Positions 13,753 to 20,393 of a stretch of 24,844 nt of DNA are shown in pieces. Each line of letters begins with the position of its first letter. The first letter of the stretch is position 1. The notes below the pieces were generated by a model. It had not been told where the DNA came from, did no database searches, and saw nothing but the letters and a program-made list of their open reading frames with translations. Made by a program: the position numbers and the translations under genes. The DNA lies in IMG/VR virus record IMGVR_UViG_3300025133_000566, positions 1 through 24,844 of that record. One strand, given 5' to 3'. This stretch comes from a virus.

Positions 13753-14384
13753 AGTATTAAGTTTCCTGTTATAGCAGCGACGCCAAACAACTTAGTAGTT
13801 GCGTTTAAGCTTGTAACTATAAAGAAGTCGCCGTTGCCTGTGCCTTTATTATCAATAACTGACACTGCGTTAGAGTCTGATTCCTCAAACCAAATACATC
13901 CTGTTGCTGAACCTAGCGTTTCACCGTTGATAGTCGTATTTAAAGCAATATAGCATGAGGTATTACTAACTTGCCCAAGTCTTTCAGTATCACCTTTAGG
14001 AAATCTTTTAAAAACGCAGTTCTGAAATATAGCTCTTCCACCTTCGTTTATAGTAACTAACGTTTCAGCAGTAGCTTTTGTTTGCTCAAAAAAACAGTTA
14101 GTAAAAATAGCATAACCACCTGACTTAATAATAACTGGCGCTGTAAACTTAGCTCCCGGTTGTCCTACTAAGACTGTGTTTTTTTTGACGATAGTTATAC
14201 CTTTGTGATCACCCTGTTCTAGCCAAACAAAGTTTTCACTCTTTTGACCTTCTTCTGGAGGGGTTCCTGCTCTTGCAAAGTTTTCACCTCGACTGGATAC
14301 AAAATCATCTAGTGTAAACTTATCAAACCTTTCACTAGTATCTAAGTCTTTGCCAAACAAAAGCGCAGTGTTTTTACTAGTCAT
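13749..14384 (-). CDS. Small beta-helix-type appendage protein, 211 aa
   Basis: The first 60 residues are polar (GKDLDTSERFDKFTLDDFVS). From about residue 62 there are repeating beta-helix-like rungs: GITIVKKNTVLVGQPGAKF, VIIKSGGYAIFTNCFFEQT, then LVTINEGGRAIFQNCVFKR. The paired G-G-x-A-I-F-x-N-C-x-F turns are typical of right-handed parallel beta-helices found in phage spikes and pectate-lyase-like folds. It is much shorter than a full tailspike (usually over 400 aa) and shows no catalytic motif, so it may be a truncated spike, an adaptor for one, or a head/tail decoration. It overlaps the nozzle stop (ATGA). Its ribosome-binding site (GGAGG) is encoded in the Arg-rich tail of the nozzle protein. 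Confidence 0.75.
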   Translation of the reverse strand: MTSKNTALLFGKDLDTSERFDKFTLDDFVSSRGENFARAGTPPEEGQKSENFVWLEQGDHKGITIVKKNTVLVGQPGAKFTAPVIIKSGGYAIFTNCFFEQTKATAETLVTINEGGRAIFQNCVFKRFPKGDTERLGQVSNTSCYIALNTTINGETLGSATGCIWFEESDSNAVSVIDNKGTGNGDFFIVTSLNATTKLFGVAAITGNLIL

Positions 14385-17158
14385 CGACCACGCCTCCGTC
14401 GTCCTGCTACAGCTTGTAAGGCTACTTTGATTGATTTAATATTAAGTTTACTTGCTTTGTCTAAAAGAAAGCCAAAGAACGTGTAGTTAACAGATTCACC
14501 TCTAACTGAATCAGAAGTAGCTATTGTGTCTACCTCTTCTACATCAACAAGGTAGTTACCTTCCAAAGCGTTAGTATTGTCGCCATATAGCGCACTTGTG
14601 CCTAACAGTCTATCTTCTAAACCAGCAGGTTTAAATCTGGTTCTAATAGAGTTTTTATTTGCAACCTGCTCAAGAGCAGCTCTATTGATATTATCATCAG
14701 TTACATCAACCAGTTGTGTTACATAATCTTTGTAATCTGAACCTGCTACTGTGTTCCAAGGTCCAAACAACCATGGCTTAATAGGCTCACCAGTTCCTCT
14801 GCTGCTTATTGATGAATAAGAACCTCTTGCCTTTATTTGCTCTTGACCCTCAATACCGATTTGTGATGACTTATAAATCCAATCAACACCTGTTGTTCTT
14901 GTATCCGCAGTTTCTAAGTAGTAATAACCTGGATTCCAAACAATAGTATTCATAGGAGTAGCTAGTGTTCCAGGTGGTGTAGAACCGTAATAATATTCTG
15001 CTGTTGTGATTCCACCTATCAAAGATGACTGAGCATCACCTGTGCCAGTTCTATTTCTTTTTTGAAAGGGAATCCAGATAACAGGATTTTTATTATATCG
15101 ATTTAGATTAGAATAAGGATAAGACGTATTACCAGCGGCATAAGGGATACTAGCATCAAACTTGATATTAATATTTCCAGCAGTGTCTGAAACTTGCGCT
15201 GTTCCTGCAATAGTCCCTGGTGAATATCCGCTATAGTTGACTGCTCGTTCGGTGGGCAACATAAAGACGATTGAGTCGTCTCCTGCTCCTGCGAAGGGAA
15301 CAGTTTGATATTTGGTTGTGTCATAGGAAAACTCTAAGTTAAAACCAAGGACTTGATGATGGCCTGCTTGATTTGTTGTAAAGTAGATGGGCAAATACCA
15401 TAGCTCATCTTCTTCTGTATATGTGGTAGCTTGTGTTACATCTGCTGATAGTTTGTTGCCCCAGCGTTCTAGTGGGTCAAACCAAACTGTGTTGTTGGTA
15501 GAATCTTCTGAACCATCATAAAAACCAATAGTTCTTTTACCTTCGTCAAAATCCCTTGTAGAACCATCAAGTGTGCCGCCTCTACCCCACTGAAATAATC
15601 TCCAAGACTTATTGATACCAATATTTTGTGTAGTTGGTAAACCTTCACGGCTAACAGTTTTATTAATAATCTGTTTAGTTTCACTTCCACCTACGGCAAA
15701 AGTTTTTGTTTGTGTGCTTGTAAGCCAAGGCGATGATATGTTTGGATTACCGCTTACTTTATAAGTATATCCACCAGCACCATCTGGTTCTGACTCTACA
15801 ATCGAAGTAAAAGACCATAGATACCAACCGTTTTTATAAATCCAAACTAAGTTTAGTTCTGGAACAACAAGCATAAGTTGCTCATATACTTCATCATAGG
15901 TTAGATGCACTTGGCTAGTATTATCTCTAAAGCGATAAACAAAGTCTGGGGAGTTTAAGTCTGTTCCTACAAAACCGTTAGCTGCAAAGTAGTGAACAAA
16001 AGGGTTTACTGTGCTATCTGTGAAGAAACGCTTGATTGGAAGCGAAACTTGCTCTGCGGAAAAGCCTGTTCCAGTAGAATACACTCCGTTATCATCAACC
16101 CAAAAGATTCTATTTTGACGGAATAGAACAGCGTTTGGACCTAAACAACCTATTTCGCTATGAACCTCAGTCATACGGCCAGCGGTTAAGAGAACACCTT
16201 GTGATGGTTGGTAAATAAAAGTTTGATCTTTGGACCAAACGATTACCATCTCGTTAAACGTTTTTATTGCTGTAATATCAGAACGTAGTTCGTGAAAGGT
16301 AAAAGTGTTATCACCGATGATAGCGTTTGAAACACCTATATCTGAAAAGTAAATAGATCTTCCAGAGGCATAAACAATACGTCCGTCGTTAGCATCTAAA
16401 TCTACGATACCACCTAGTTCATCATCTGTAATATAACCATACGCATCAATAAACAGACCATCTTTAAAACTTATTGGAGTTATTAGTGATGTTTCACTGT
16501 ATTGGTTTGTTAGTGAAGACCATACATGGTCTCTTGAGTTTAAGTTATTAACCCGTTTATCTCTATTCGTTATAAAAGCTGCTGGATTGTAGATAAAGAC
16601 ACCTGATTCTTTTGAACCAAAATAGACTTTACCTAGATAATCACTAAAAAAGAAATCATCACTTTTAGCTTCTTTTATGCTTGAATAGTTTAGCAAAGGT
16701 GGTCTTGCTTCAAGAAAACCTCTGTAATAACCAGTAGTTTGGTTAGTCTTCTCTTGTTCGGCAGTGTGATCGTAGAGAACTTCCTGCCAAAAGTTATTTG
16801 TAGTTACGTCATAGATGTTAACACAGTAGTAATCAAGGTAATCTGTGCCTGCTTCTGCCTTATATCCAGTCCATCCTCGTGCTAAAAACACAGAAAGGAT
16901 CTGTTCATGACCAAAATCTGTTACAAAAGTATAAGAACCTAAGTGTTTCCTTAGACCAAACTCCTCGTTATTTGCAGCATCACCAGTTATGCGCGCAGAT
17001 AAGGGAGCGTTAAACTCCATAAGAGTGCCAAAACCATCACGAGTTTCGTAAAGTCCACGGTTTTTATAAAGGTTTTGGATAAACGTTTGGTTATTGTAGG
17101 GGTCGCTAAGAGCCATACCGTCTGTTATTATATCTATTTCTTTTTTAGGACTGGCCAT
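14381..17158 (-). CDS. Tail nozzle / tail tubular protein B-like, 925 aa
   Basis: A beta-rich protein of the nozzle class (T7 gp12, P22 gp10). The N-terminal half has propeller-like strands: GRIVYASGRSIYFSDIG, DITAIKTFNEMVIVWSKDQT, GCLGPNAVLFRQNRIFWVDD and NGVYSTGTGFSAEQVS, which match the conserved 'identity of first value, FWxSxxGVY' pattern of these proteins. The C-terminus is Arg-rich (GRRRRGR). The ORF is open up to an ATG at 17182, but GGAG at 17167-17164 lies five bases before the ATG at 17158 and only two before the one at 17161, so MASPKKE at 17158 is my chosen start. It lies downstream of the adaptor, from which it is separated by the homing endonuclease gene, and it overlaps that gene by 14 bases. 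In the virion it would close the DNA channel below the adaptor. Confidence 0.8.
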   Translation of the reverse strand: MASPKKEIDIITDGMALSDPYNNQTFIQNLYKNRGLYETRDGFGTLMEFNAPLSARITGDAANNEEFGLRKHLGSYTFVTDFGHEQILSVFLARGWTGYKAEAGTDYLDYYCVNIYDVTTNNFWQEVLYDHTAEQEKTNQTTGYYRGFLEARPPLLNYSSIKEAKSDDFFFSDYLGKVYFGSKESGVFIYNPAAFITNRDKRVNNLNSRDHVWSSLTNQYSETSLITPISFKDGLFIDAYGYITDDELGGIVDLDANDGRIVYASGRSIYFSDIGVSNAIIGDNTFTFHELRSDITAIKTFNEMVIVWSKDQTFIYQPSQGVLLTAGRMTEVHSEIGCLGPNAVLFRQNRIFWVDDNGVYSTGTGFSAEQVSLPIKRFFTDSTVNPFVHYFAANGFVGTDLNSPDFVYRFRDNTSQVHLTYDEVYEQLMLVVPELNLVWIYKNGWYLWSFTSIVESEPDGAGGYTYKVSGNPNISSPWLTSTQTKTFAVGGSETKQIINKTVSREGLPTTQNIGINKSWRLFQWGRGGTLDGSTRDFDEGKRTIGFYDGSEDSTNNTVWFDPLERWGNKLSADVTQATTYTEEDELWYLPIYFTTNQAGHHQVLGFNLEFSYDTTKYQTVPFAGAGDDSIVFMLPTERAVNYSGYSPGTIAGTAQVSDTAGNINIKFDASIPYAAGNTSYPYSNLNRYNKNPVIWIPFQKRNRTGTGDAQSSLIGGITTAEYYYGSTPPGTLATPMNTIVWNPGYYYLETADTRTTGVDWIYKSSQIGIEGQEQIKARGSYSSISSRGTGEPIKPWLFGPWNTVAGSDYKDYVTQLVDVTDDNINRAALEQVANKNSIRTRFKPAGLEDRLLGTSALYGDNTNALEGNYLVDVEEVDTIATSDSVRGESVNYTFFGFLLDKASKLNIKSIKVALQAVAGRRRRGR

Positions 17159-17699
17159 CATATCTCCACTTAAACCCACCACAGGTTGCTTGTTTGTTGC
17201 GGCAAACTCTTGAGATACCGTTTCGATTAGCTTTGGTTAAGTCTTCTGCTTCCTTAGCGCTATTAAAGGTAGCGATTAACTTTCCGCTTTTATTAAGTTG
17301 GATTACTTTCTTAGACCTGTATTGATTTCCACGCAGAAACTCTGTGTGCTGCTTAATAAGTTCTGGCGACCTTGGTATCCCTTTATTCCAAGAAACCTGT
17401 CCAGTGCGATCTGGTGGTCTTCCTGCGGTCATACAGATATTTAACTGAGGCTGATATATATCGATATAGAGTTGTTCCATCTTTACAAGATTTGTTTCTT
17501 CACAGTTGATGAGAACACTGAACTTGTGATTATCAGGACCATATTTTTTTAGAGAGTTATAAATCGCTTGCTGTCCCTTACAACGAAGCTTTTTGTAGTC
17601 TCTCCATCTTTCTGAACAACTAACGGAGCTTCCAATATAAGTCTTTCCGTTTGGTGAAACTATTCTATAAATACCTATTTCTCGTTTATGGTAAGCCAT
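17145..17699 (-). CDS. GIY-YIG homing endonuclease with NUMOD3 and NUMOD1-like regions
   Basis: A complete 184-residue free-standing homing endonuclease. The catalytic GIY-YIG domain spans about residues 7-90: GIY at 9-11, YIG at 21-23, catalytic Arg31, catalytic Glu75 and Asn87 are all present. Residues 100-124 match NUMOD3 (GQVSWNKGIPRSPELIKQ) and 131-179 match a NUMOD1/IENR1 helix-turn-helix (KVIQLNKSGKLIATFNSAKE through GISRVCRNK to GGFKWRY). All active-site residues look intact, so it is probably active. Such enzymes nick or cut a cognate site near their insertion point and copy themselves into phages that lack them. It sits between adaptor and nozzle genes, not inside an intron or intein. 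AAAGGA lies eight bases before the start. Its last codons carry the ribosome-binding site and start codon of the nozzle gene. Confidence 0.93.
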   Translation of the reverse strand: MAYHKREIGIYRIVSPNGKTYIGSSVSCSERWRDYKKLRCKGQQAIYNSLKKYGPDNHKFSVLINCEETNLVKMEQLYIDIYQPQLNICMTAGRPPDRTGQVSWNKGIPRSPELIKQHTEFLRGNQYRSKKVIQLNKSGKLIATFNSAKEAEDLTKANRNGISRVCRNKQATCGGFKWRYDGQS

Positions 17700-17723
17700 A
17701 TTTTAGTTCCTTTCACAGTGATT

Positions 17724-17737
17724 CATATATTTACCAC
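17724..17737 (-). promoter_or_regulatory. GTGGTAAATATATG motif, copy 3
   Basis: GTGGTAAATATATG follows the adaptor stop on the minus strand, about 25 bases before the homing endonuclease start. It shares GTGGTAAATA with copies 1 and 2. No -35-like box was identified. An ATG at its end opens only a seven-codon reading frame, which I do not call a gene. Confidence 0.2.
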
Positions 17738-17738
17738 C

Positions 17739-18428
17739 TTAGTAATATGTTGCTTCGTCTGTTCCTACGACGTTATTGTTTTGATTCCATGACCTACCAG
17801 TCATAAGGTAAGAATCTAACTCGTTTTTCCTCATAGTAAGTTGAGCCATCAAGATTGGATTAGCAGCAAAGTCTTTGATTTGGTAGTGTTTACAAGCCAT
17901 AAGTGCGATAAGGTCACCATAATATGCAGCTATTTCGTTTAGATAAACACCAGCACCTGTTGCTGTATTAATAACTGTGAACGGTTCTGTGGGAAAACCA
18001 ACATATTCTACAAGGCAACTATCAGCTTGTTCGCTAAATAAAAGTTGTGTGCCTCTTAACATATAGCGGTTTACACCGTTTCGCATCTCTACGAGTGAGT
18101 TTGCAGCCTGTAAGTAATAGCGTGCTAGCCCTGTGCCAGCATCTGAGCGCGCTACTCTCATCAGACGATACAGCCTATCAGCAACAGGAGCACTGCCCAT
18201 AATAGCGTTTCCTGAAGCTCCTGGGAGAGCTAAGTCTAAAGTATCAGCGTTGATATTGATGTAGTTCTGAGAAGTTCCAAACAAGTTACTATCTGATTCA
18301 GCAGCTTTAAAAGTTAACTCTCTCCATCCTAAGTTTAAAAAGTTTACTTTTGTATCATCATCCATAAAAGTAAGATCGGAATCGTCTACATATTGTTTAA
18401 ACAGTTCTGCGATTTGTGCTGTATTCAT
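17739..18428 (-). CDS. Head-tail adaptor (tail tubular protein A-like)
   Basis: A 229-residue protein at the position and size of podovirus adaptors (T7 gp11 is 196 aa). The N-terminus is helical (residues 1-45, IAELFKQYVDDSDLTFMDD, then NFLNLGWRELTFKAAE), typical of the helical bundle that packs under the portal. A central beta region includes DTLDLALPG and ALPGASGNAIM, with VADRLYRLMRVA, LLFSEQADSCLVEYVGFP. A C-terminal helix (ALMACKHYQIKDFAANPILM) and an Asn/Tyr-rich tail follow. Portal, adaptor and nozzle are in the usual order, apart from the inserted endonuclease. CGGAG lies nine bases before the ATG, seven bases after the portal stop. Identity rests on position and fold pattern more than on a diagnostic motif. 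Confidence 0.75.
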   Translation of the reverse strand: MNTAQIAELFKQYVDDSDLTFMDDDTKVNFLNLGWRELTFKAAESDSNLFGTSQNYININADTLDLALPGASGNAIMGSAPVADRLYRLMRVARSDAGTGLARYYLQAANSLVEMRNGVNRYMLRGTQLLFSEQADSCLVEYVGFPTEPFTVINTATGAGVYLNEIAAYYGDLIALMACKHYQIKDFAANPILMAQLTMRKNELDSYLMTGRSWNQNNNVVGTDEATYY

Positions 18429-18434
18429 GTGTTA

Positions 18435-20393
18435 TTACTCCGTTGGCCTTCTATTAATAACTGCTAAGTCGTTACTTTGTGCCTGTTGTCGAACTTGACC
18501 ACGTTGTGTAGTCATAGCGTTTACCAACATAGCGTCTTCAGCAGAACCTTCTATCTGTTGTTCAGCAGCTTGTGGACTTTGAGTTACAAGTCCTTCTAAC
18601 ATCTTATCTTGATCGTTCGTAGGTAAGTGTGTTGGGAATACTCTGTATTTAACTCTATTCTCACCAGGGTTTTTAGGATCAGGTGGAGTGTAAGTAGCCA
18701 AGGCAATAAGAATATCTCTCATGTAATCCTGAACAAACTGAGCTAACTCATAATATTCAGGTGTTTTCATGTAATCACCAAAGATTGAAGTGAACTTTGG
18801 AATATCATCAGTAGCAAAGATTTCAATCTGTGCGCCTGCTTTAACAGCATCAAGCATGTCTTGGACGTGATTGCGGGATTGGATTTCTTCAAGAACCATG
18901 GCGTTGCCTGTCTTAAAGGAGATTTCACGCATAGCCTGCTTTTTATCGATAAGGCCAAGTTCAAGTAAGTTAAGAATCTTAGCATCTCTATCTTGGGCTT
19001 CATCACGGAATAGTGAACCAGCTTCGATAAATACTTCTGGCTTATTAACAATATTTGTTTGTGATAGTGAACGCCAAACTAACTTGCCTGTTGTATCCAT
19101 CATGTTAATAAAACGTTCTTCGGTGTAATATTCTTTCATCAACTGAAGAACAGATTCAGACATCTTCTTAACAGCGCTTTCGATGTTTTCCTGAGTCATA
19201 ACTAACTGACTAACATCTTGCTTGCCAAGGGCCTCAATAGCCTTGCCAGAGGTCACACCTACTGCTCGCTTGCCGAGTGTAGTTGAGTGAACACCAGCAA
19301 CGTCCAGCATCTCGCTCTGTAAGCGCGATACATGGTCGAGAACATAGCTAGGCATACCTTTCATCGCTATTTGTTGAGGAGCGCCACCAGCGGCGTTGTA
19401 GTAGATCTTTTCACCGGGGGTTCCACGGATTGATGAGCCGTTTACACCAGACGTTTTTGGAATCAACCACTTTGGGTTTGACATCATCTCAACGTTCTGA
19501 ACGATTTGGTTTCTAACTTTATTGTAGAGGTTCTGAAGATCTAAGATGTTTGACACCATGCCGATGCCCCACAACTTATCAGGCAAGTTTGTGTAACGAA
19601 TAAACTGAACAGGAATACCCTTGATTGGGCTTTTTCCTTTGTAAAGCCAAGTGTTACCCATAACGATGCCGTAGTTACCATCTTTAAAATATACTGAGTA
19701 GATCTCTACACGAGGATAGTAAAAGGATTCACCTTGATATGATTTAGTATGTGGGTAAGAGTTGTCTTCTGATTGGTCAGATGATAAAGCTTGAGCGTCG
19801 TTGATTGCTTCCATATGTTGTGGATATGCAGCTTCAAGGTCTTTTTTACGAACAATCTTACGACAAGCGATAAAAGAAGATTCATCTGGGTTAGAACATC
19901 CAGCTTCAAAGAAAAGATCGTAAGGTGAGATAACTTCTAGTTTGATACAATCCTCTTCAGCATCGTAGTATTCTTTTAAAGCACAGTTACCGCAGGAGAC
20001 TAACCACTCAATAGCAGTAGTTAGTTCGCGTTTTACACTTTGACTATGATAAAAATATTTAAGTGCTTCCTCAGAAGACTTCGCTTTGATGATATCTTCG
20101 TTAGAAGGTGAAGCAGGCATAACTGAAACGCCTGGATAGTTAGTTGCTAAACGCGATGTTACAGCCCGATACATATTCAGAATCAGGTTTACGATCAACT
20201 GATTACGTCCAGGCTGATTCCGAAGGGTTACATACTGTTGAAGAGACTTATCATAACGAACGTTCTGTTGTCCGTTAAGATACATGAGAGATAAATCCCA
20301 TACTCTAGTTTGATTAAGTTTAGCGTTTCTAGCTGAATCCAACATAGATTTGATTTGTGTAGGAAAGCCATCATGTTCTAGATTGTTTTGCAT
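18435..20393 (-). CDS. Portal protein
   Basis: A 652-residue protein with typical portal features: an N-terminal helix with ARNAKLNQTRVWDLSLMYLNG, and a clip/wing region with NLILNMYRAVTSRLATNYPG, VSPYDLFFEAG-like and VQFIRYTNLPDKLWGIGM. A stem follows with DLQNLYNKVRNQIVQNVEMM, then the crown helix region (LDVAGVHSTTLGKRAVGVTS, then SGKAIEAL). Those stretches resemble P22- and SPP1-type portals and the family to which large podovirus portals belong. The portal forms the dodecameric DNA entry ring at one capsid vertex and binds terminase and adaptor. It is followed by the adaptor. Its ATG overlaps the stop of the 151-aa gene by one base (TGATG), indicating coupling. It lies downstream of the capsid gene instead of upstream, which is unusual. 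Confidence 0.9.
   Translation of the reverse strand: MQNNLEHDGFPTQIKSMLDSARNAKLNQTRVWDLSLMYLNGQQNVRYDKSLQQYVTLRNQPGRNQLIVNLILNMYRAVTSRLATNYPGVSVMPASPSNEDIIKAKSSEEALKYFYHSQSVKRELTTAIEWLVSCGNCALKEYYDAEEDCIKLEVISPYDLFFEAGCSNPDESSFIACRKIVRKKDLEAAYPQHMEAINDAQALSSDQSEDNSYPHTKSYQGESFYYPRVEIYSVYFKDGNYGIVMGNTWLYKGKSPIKGIPVQFIRYTNLPDKLWGIGMVSNILDLQNLYNKVRNQIVQNVEMMSNPKWLIPKTSGVNGSSIRGTPGEKIYYNAAGGAPQQIAMKGMPSYVLDHVSRLQSEMLDVAGVHSTTLGKRAVGVTSGKAIEALGKQDVSQLVMTQENIESAVKKMSESVLQLMKEYYTEERFINMMDTTGKLVWRSLSQTNIVNKPEVFIEAGSLFRDEAQDRDAKILNLLELGLIDKKQAMREISFKTGNAMVLEEIQSRNHVQDMLDAVKAGAQIEIFATDDIPKFTSIFGDYMKTPEYYELAQFVQDYMRDILIALATYTPPDPKNPGENRVKYRVFPTHLPTNDQDKMLEGLVTQSPQAAEQQIEGSAEDAMLVNAMTTQRGQVRQQAQSNDLAVINRRPTE

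Follow-up and report, generated by a model that had tools for sequence, protein, structure and literature searches.

A homing endonuclease gene at the start of a phage nozzle gene, with the predicted ribosome-binding site of the displaced gene in its last codons

Introduction

How can a selfish gene that is carried by neither an intron nor an intein occupy the opening codons of a structural gene and leave the phage viable? This question is raised by a junction in a viral DNA of 24,844 nucleotides (nt) (IMG/VR record IMGVR_UViG_3300025133_000566, positions 1 to 24,844; this whole stretch is called here the window), in which a GIY-YIG homing endonuclease gene (HEG) overlaps the start of a gene named nozzle. 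An earlier sequence-only reading had placed a GGAG Shine-Dalgarno (SD) core, a pair of ATG codons and the first nozzle codons inside the F-K-W-R-Y-D-G codons of the HEG, with an overlap of 14 bases, and by coordinates this is exact. The elements of the junction are as follows.

17145..17699, minus strand: GIY-YIG HEG, 184 amino acids (aa), with a NUMOD1-like C-terminal region and the end GGFKWRYDGQS before the stop
17164..17167, minus strand: GGAG SD core, within the W-R codons of the HEG
17156..17161, minus strand: ATGATG, two candidate nozzle starts, the second of which (17158-17156) lies 5 nt from GGAG and agrees with the start in HEG-free relatives
17144..17153, minus strand: nozzle nt 6-15, with 7 of 10 positions unlike between HEG-plus (MASPK) and HEG-free (MAAPR) phages
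14381..17158, minus strand: gene named nozzle, 925 aa, adjoining portal and adaptor genes in relatives too
17700..17738, minus strand: native nozzle leader of 39 nt, now the HEG leader, with SD AAGGA at 17712-17708; identical in the HEG-free relative L002, where it stands directly before nozzle (ATGGCTGCACCT)

It is very probable that the HEG was inserted exactly at the start of nozzle, with its 5' end taking the native SD and ATG and the codons of its 3' end re-supplying what nozzle had lost. In the proposed mechanism a free-standing GIY-YIG HEG would land on the nozzle translation start, its 5' end would capture the native SD and ATG and probably also the first nozzle codons, and the codons of its GGFKWRY tail would provide a replacement SD, an ATG and the first five codons of nozzle. 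This exit ribosome-binding site would pay back the captured start, and because the HEG brings it, the element could occupy a gene that is probably essential and need neither intron nor intein; the question put above would then have an answer. The anatomy, the empty site, the recoded start and the recurrence in other phages can be read directly from the sequences. Ribosomes presumably start at 17158, either through the SD or by re-initiating once they have reached the HEG stop 14 nt further on, or in both ways; the endonuclease is presumably active and the block probably moves by homing.

The empty site in close relatives

A search with the nozzle protein gave 12 loci, 11 of them with a readable gene start (L008 has none), and no relative of this protein was found among phage isolates in 50,697 GenBank phage records. 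The HEG is present in two of the 11 relatives, namely L001 (99.9% identical to the window) and L003, and the remaining nine are HEG-free. The most informative pair is L002, which has no HEG, and L003, which has one: their flanks are 99.55% identical upstream (3347 nt) and 99.73% identical downstream (2179 nt), and no such HEG was found in the whole 14,782-base record of L002. After the upstream stop, L002 has the 39-nt leader GGTGGTAAATATATGAATCACTGTGAAAGGAACTAAAAT and next to it ATGGCTGCACCTCGTAAAGAAATAG (nozzle MAAPRKEI). L003 and the window share this leader, which there runs into ATGGCTTACCATAAACGAGAAATAG (HEG MAYHKREI), and the nozzle start comes 541 nt later as GGAGATATGATGGCCAGTCCTAAAAAAGAAATAG (MASPKKEI). 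The leader is identical between the window and L002 at 39 of 39 nt and precedes ATGGCT with and without the HEG. Since the same leader and ATG stand before the HEG and a new start stands at its 3' end, the native leader and ATG appear to have been taken over by the HEG, which would have brought a substitute SD, ATG and start codons.

The proposal of the sequence-only reading that the conserved HEG end itself supplies the SD and start of nozzle is borne out by this comparison of junctions, as HEG-free relatives do not share the HEG-derived sequence upstream of nozzle. Its statement that insertion replaced the native leader holds in one part: nozzle now has a SD and start derived from the HEG, but the leader itself is intact and now drives the HEG. 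The suggestion that clean loss of the element would be costly fails as worded, because exact loss gives the arrangement of L002, which exists; only deletions that take the 3' end of the HEG and spare its start would cost nozzle its start.

Apart from the HEG, L003 and L002 are distinguished in the 300 nt to each side by no more than 7 changes, all at nozzle nt 6-15, by which the first codons are recoded from MAAPRK (HEG-free) to MASPKK (HEG-plus). Such a change of 7 in 10 nt would fit protection of the occupied site from cleavage. Between the window and L003, 2 of 541 HEG nt differ, compared with 69 of 2500 in the upstream flank and 88 of about 2200 in the downstream one (summed counts); this low divergence of the HEG against its flanks is what a gene that two lineages have come to share only recently would show. 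These contigs display sporadic presence together with an empty cognate site in close relatives, one of the marks of a homing endonuclease. The opposite history, in which the ancestor carried the HEG and L002 is a revertant that lost it precisely, could draw on the near identity of L002 and L003 and on the fact that only two contigs are involved. Against it stand the nine HEG-free relatives among the 11 that could be assessed, the recoded nozzle start, which is absent from L002 so that an exact loss must also have undone the 7 nt changes, and the HEG divergence far below that of the flanks. Such a reversion is therefore held to be very unlikely.

Translation start of the nozzle gene

The HEG ends in K-W-R-Y-D-G-Q-S-stop, and its codons W-R-Y-D-G are TGG AGA TAT GAT GGC (17168-17154). 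Two ATG codons in the nozzle frame, at 17161-17159 and 17158-17156, lie 2 and 5 nt past GGAG; the overlap of the two genes is 14 bases (17158-17145) with the second ATG and 17 with the first. The program call of open reading frames (ORFs) puts the start of nozzle further upstream, at GTG 17182. Both this GTG and the first ATG are in frame, and the latter would give MMASPKK, but the N-termini of HEG-free relatives are homologous only from the MA that opens with the second ATG, and the first is only 2 nt from GGAG. It is highly improbable that either of them is the true start. For the start at 17158 the predicted duplex with the anti-SD has an energy of -6.4 kcal/mol, compared with -5.6 for the native leader in L002. 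The scan of window junctions names TAAG rather than GGAG for nozzle, as the script keeps the first of equally long matches.

Translational coupling of nozzle to the HEG is plausible, given a start that lies 14 nt before the HEG stop. A stronger version would have nozzle translated wholly by ribosomes that finish the HEG and re-initiate, with no new initiation at GGAG. The same short distance speaks for it, as do overlaps without SD in Bacteroides-type phages (cr85_1, BS-TP2). Whole coupling is nevertheless judged unlikely, since the start has a SD at usable spacing, and SD-like matches of at least 4 nt occur at 21 of 21 scanned junctions of this phage.

The native leader (17738-17700, minus strand) also contains a mini-ORF of 7 codons, MNHCERN followed by a stop, with the SD in its last codons; a similar ATGAAGCACTGG opens the leaders of L007, L010 and L011.

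Type of the endonuclease

The GIY-YIG catalytic domain is present (PF01541, E 5.6e-6, 27 bits with a cut-off of 22.6; phrog_314 homing endonuclease, E 4.9e-22). The C-terminus resembles NUMOD1 below the cut-off (PF07453, E 5.5e-4, 20.5 bits against 22.8) and PF22083 at E 0.092, and a search of solved structures gave weak matches only, with domain 1mk0 of I-TevI at E 0.23. Other homologues of the HEG protein (P0001) in GenBank phages are all less than 60% identical (38 records). The HEG is free-standing: it and nozzle are separate overlapping frames, and no self-splicing element was matched around it. Mobility borne by an intron was rejected because there is no Rfam match up to E 1 in window positions 16500-18500, and an intein was rejected because the HEG has its own stop and nozzle lies in another frame.

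Cultured lactococcal phages with and without the element

The same kind of junction is found in cultured phages unrelated to that of the window. In Lactococcus phages P087 and P596 no HEG precedes the helicase gene, and the junction reads TTAAGGAGGTAATATGACATTTCAATTAAGACC. LW31 and phiQ1 have HEGs at this place, identical to each other in 91 of 180 columns, and the first helicase codons change from MTFQLRP (P087/P596) to MSKFNLRP (LW31/phiQ1). As both HEGs end in TGGAGGTATRTGAATGAGTAAGTTTAATCTTAGACC, the SD, the ATG and the recoded first codons of the helicase would again have arrived with the HEG. In the third-party annotation of phiQ1 a ribosome-binding site is placed inside the endonuclease gene. 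In LW31 (L274, 920-984) a promoter-like TTGACA...TATAAT stands before the HEG and is absent from P087 and P596; this HEG may bring its own promoter.

In Skunavirus the HEGs are of the HNH/NUMOD4/NUMOD1 type. The HEG-free phages P680 and PhiA.16 have the Sak start AGAGGAGAAAATGAGCGTATTTGA, which overlaps by 14 nt the upstream gene ending in GENERI before the stop. In 66901 and Phi4.2 the HEG begins at that same Sak SD and ATG. The HEG end of 66901 (KWRRK-stop) restores the Sak junction as TGGAGGAGAAAATGAGCGTATTTGA, and that of Phi4.2 reads TGGAGAAAAGAAAATGAGCGTATTTGA, its C-terminal ENERI-stop being the end of the upstream gene in P680. Thus in Skunavirus with the HEG, SD and start are kept before the element, and GGAGAAAATGAGCGTATTTGA or a near copy stands at its end. 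In a similar way the HEG of RMP5 ends in GERGVNGNN-stop, and jm3, without that HEG, has an upstream gene ending in ERGENGNN-stop. Judged from these junctions, duplication of the gene start at both HEG ends is clear for Skunavirus. HEG-plus and HEG-free leaders (ACTAAAGGAGAAATAAATG) are identical in CHPC958 (28457) and P680 (26538), as they are in the window. At the HNH site of Phi4.2 (L318, record 26407-26535) it was also observed that the HEG C-terminus, FLDLAKEQGKVTENE before the stop, repeats the end of the upstream gene, itself now a diverged copy (FLELAKLQGKVIEIE before the stop), and that about 45 nt are duplicated at both ends of the element.

A total of 15 HNH sites was found in seven of eight Skunavirus records. 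Ten are directly followed by a co-directional gene, and in all ten the SD lies within HEG codons (junctions read by eye); another four are followed by terminator-like or promoter-like sequence or by no nearby start, and one could not be framed. A separate case is a gene which we take to be VRR-NUC-like (it has no Pfam match). In HEG-free relatives it starts at the stop of the upstream gene or a few nt from it, and with the HEG it starts at -11 or -8 within KWRYQNAE-stop or KWRYVYD-stop of the HEG. A bench system is at hand in cultured dairy phages, in which one and the same start site occurs both occupied and empty. As further empty-site targets, gyrase B (2068 matched GenBank records, all less than 60% identical) and the DUF3799 exonuclease (best relative 56%) were too distant for junction reading.

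Codons at the ends of homing endonuclease genes

The end GG[FY]KW[RK]Y occurs in more than 200 contig stretches, in keeping with the earlier claim that GGFKWRY is a usual end of such endonucleases. Three scans of IMG/VR contigs for GG[FY]KW-x-Y gave 88 stretches with arginine encoded by AGR at the x position, 27 with arginine encoded by CGN and at least 120 with lysine, the lysine class being a sample among the matches listed. Among the matches listed there were 222 motif places. From these 57 were removed, on the grounds that the motif was more than 25 codons from the stop, the frame was shorter than 80 aa away from a contig edge, or the frame was open at the contig end; the 165 kept formed 132 clusters, 127 with more than 250 nt downstream. 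An overlap was defined as an out-of-frame ATG at +1 to +5 past the motif that opens an ORF reaching at least 60 aa beyond the HEG stop. Both the filter and the +1 to +5 window were picked after the first examples had been seen.

Overlap with the next gene was found in 22 of 42 AGR clusters, 0 of 9 CGN clusters and 7 of 76 lysine clusters among the matches listed (AGR against this lysine sample, p 6e-7; with GC content in the model, p 9e-7). After related downstream proteins or HEGs at least 50% identical had been merged, the figures were 21/40, 0/8 and, again among the matches listed, 5/61. When only arginine ends are compared, which share their motif residues and differ in nothing but the codon, the p value is 0.0065. 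In the same 42 AGR-type HEGs, 29 upstream windows of 5 nt gave 0.34 overlaps on average, compared with 22 at the motif, so overlap at AGR ends exceeds chance. The most frequent place of the ATG is +4, that is GGAGR, 7 nt, ATG. A next start at +9 to +25 is found in 27 of 76 lysine-type ends (among the matches listed) and in 2 of 42 AGR-type ends. The overlapping HEGs are of HNH as well as GIY-YIG type. Eight of 10 submitted downstream products have known domains (gyrase B, helicases, YqaJ recombinase, DUF3799, RlaP, prophage tail), which argues that the next genes are real. Among 18 GenBank HEGs (17 annotated), a small set not independent of the query whose junctions were read by eye, overlap was seen in 5 of 5 with AGR-encoded arginine after K-W and in 4 of 12 of the rest. 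The insertion mechanism would account for the frequent spelling of G-G-F/Y-K-W-R ends with TGG AGG or TGG AGA.

Ordinary gene overlap and other points against the proposal

Several observations weigh against the proposed insertion mechanism. GGAG is a short SD, and at 9 of 21 scanned window junctions a SD lies inside the upstream gene. HEG-free relatives such as L004 seem to place the nozzle SD in the last codons of the upstream gene. Of the AGR-type ends 20 of 42 have no overlap, and lysine-type ends with overlap and without SD exist, for example in crAss-like phages. The start of the HEG agrees with that of the empty site at 18 of 33 nt after the ATG, which makes the HEG 5' end as a copy of the target start in the window suggestive only: of 1928 unrelated gene starts, 3 reach the same agreement with the empty site and 7 reach it with the HEG, and an unrelated window gene (start 2851) also scores 18 against the HEG. 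Over 17 mixed HEGs the pooled similarity of the starts at the two ends is weak, with a permutation p of 0.024 that rises to 0.055 when two near-duplicates are left out. Start duplication at both ends as a rule for all HEGs was rejected for its weak support, and duplication is claimed for Skunavirus alone.

On a rival explanation the junction is an ordinary gene overlap in a compact genome, and a SD for the next gene in the end of a HEG is not specific to homing elements. The nine window junctions speak for it, as does the distance of only 3 nt from the upstream stop to the nozzle ATG in L004, L005, L006 and L009, and ordinary compact-genome design accounts for part of the pattern. As a full explanation it is somewhat unlikely, since the nozzle SD of the window lineage arrived with a mobile gene (L002 against L003) and the choice between synonymous arginine codons at the HEG end predicts overlap, AGR being the one that forms a SD. 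A SD inside an upstream gene is ordinary in this phage; a mobile gene that carries one is the unusual part. As compact phage genomes routinely embed SDs, a HEG inserting at a junction must end likewise or be lost.

Taken more widely, start-junction capture may be a third general way, beside introns and inteins, for HEGs to live on essential genes. The element would land on a SD and start, use the native SD and ATG, and end in a copy or mimic of the junction, with its C-terminal codons (often G-G-F/Y-K-W-R) as the SD of the displaced gene. This generalization is tentative, and we put its chances slightly short of even. If it is true, the conserved protein end would be doubly selected, as a DNA-binding tail and as a ribosome-binding site.

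Relation to known systems

The available text on T4-like free-standing HEGs (seg, mob) describes downstream promoters inside the HEGs, as a brake on loss, and overlaps with upstream genes (PMC2988022). The likeness is an intronless HEG in a compact operon; the difference is that there the transcription signal of the downstream gene is embedded, whereas here the embedded parts are the translation signal of that gene and its first codons, and the HEG makes use of the leader that belonged to it. The HNH endonucleases of lactococcal Skunavirus, for which 212 intact genes from 89 genomes and marker exclusion by some of them are reported, have by sequence the same kind of anatomy and differ in being HNH, not GIY-YIG; the main text of that paper does not discuss junctions between HEG and next gene and contains no start-codon, ribosome, overlap or promoter terms (PMC12724721). 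In the ShiLan domain, a hidden out-of-frame HNH element in a phage methylase, a non-splicing HEG is likewise tolerated by means of unusual reading frames. Unlike here, the available text presents it as an in-frame insertion inside a gene, with no start capture and no re-supplied SD, and its authors found no detectable ribosome-binding site (PMC11855218). The GG[FY]KW end falls in or just past the C-terminal DNA-binding module of I-HmuI and NUMOD proteins (PF22083, PF07453), and the family descriptions are silent on a nucleic-acid signal in the codons of this module. Overlap, start-codon or ribosome terms do not occur in the available text of a paper on nuclease boundaries (PMC10448857). Among titles and opening parts of abstracts, mostly of papers outside subscription journals, no paper was found in which codons of a HEG are said to serve as ribosome-binding site for the gene after it, which is no proof of novelty. 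The window case is a variation on the way of life of free-standing HEGs and not an element of a new kind.

Neighbouring genes and annotated starts

Two further genes of the module lie upstream of the HEG.

18435..20393, minus strand: portal protein gene (P22_portal, E 2e-28; phrog_156, E 1.8e-37), which fixes the identity of the module
17739..18428, minus strand: gene named adaptor, 229 aa, upstream of the HEG

The adaptor and nozzle proteins have no Pfam or PHROGs match, and both names are those of the sequence-only reading.

The proposed mechanism predicts annotation errors where a HEG overlaps the next gene (cr56_1, crAss001, 66901). Annotated starts after HEGs look over-extended at 1104 in L310 (cr56_1), 1183 in L307 (66901) and 3554 in L027 (crAss001); more plausible starts are 1128, 1195 and 3584, respectively. 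The annotated overlap of crAss001 gp18 was rejected as a case, as its KWKY end lacks a SD and the start of the terminase gene is most likely located past the HEG stop. At the other end of nozzle (window 14384-14381, minus strand), the codons of the arginine-rich end GRRRRGR-stop contain GGAGG for the next gene, and the two genes overlap by 4 nt (ATGA).

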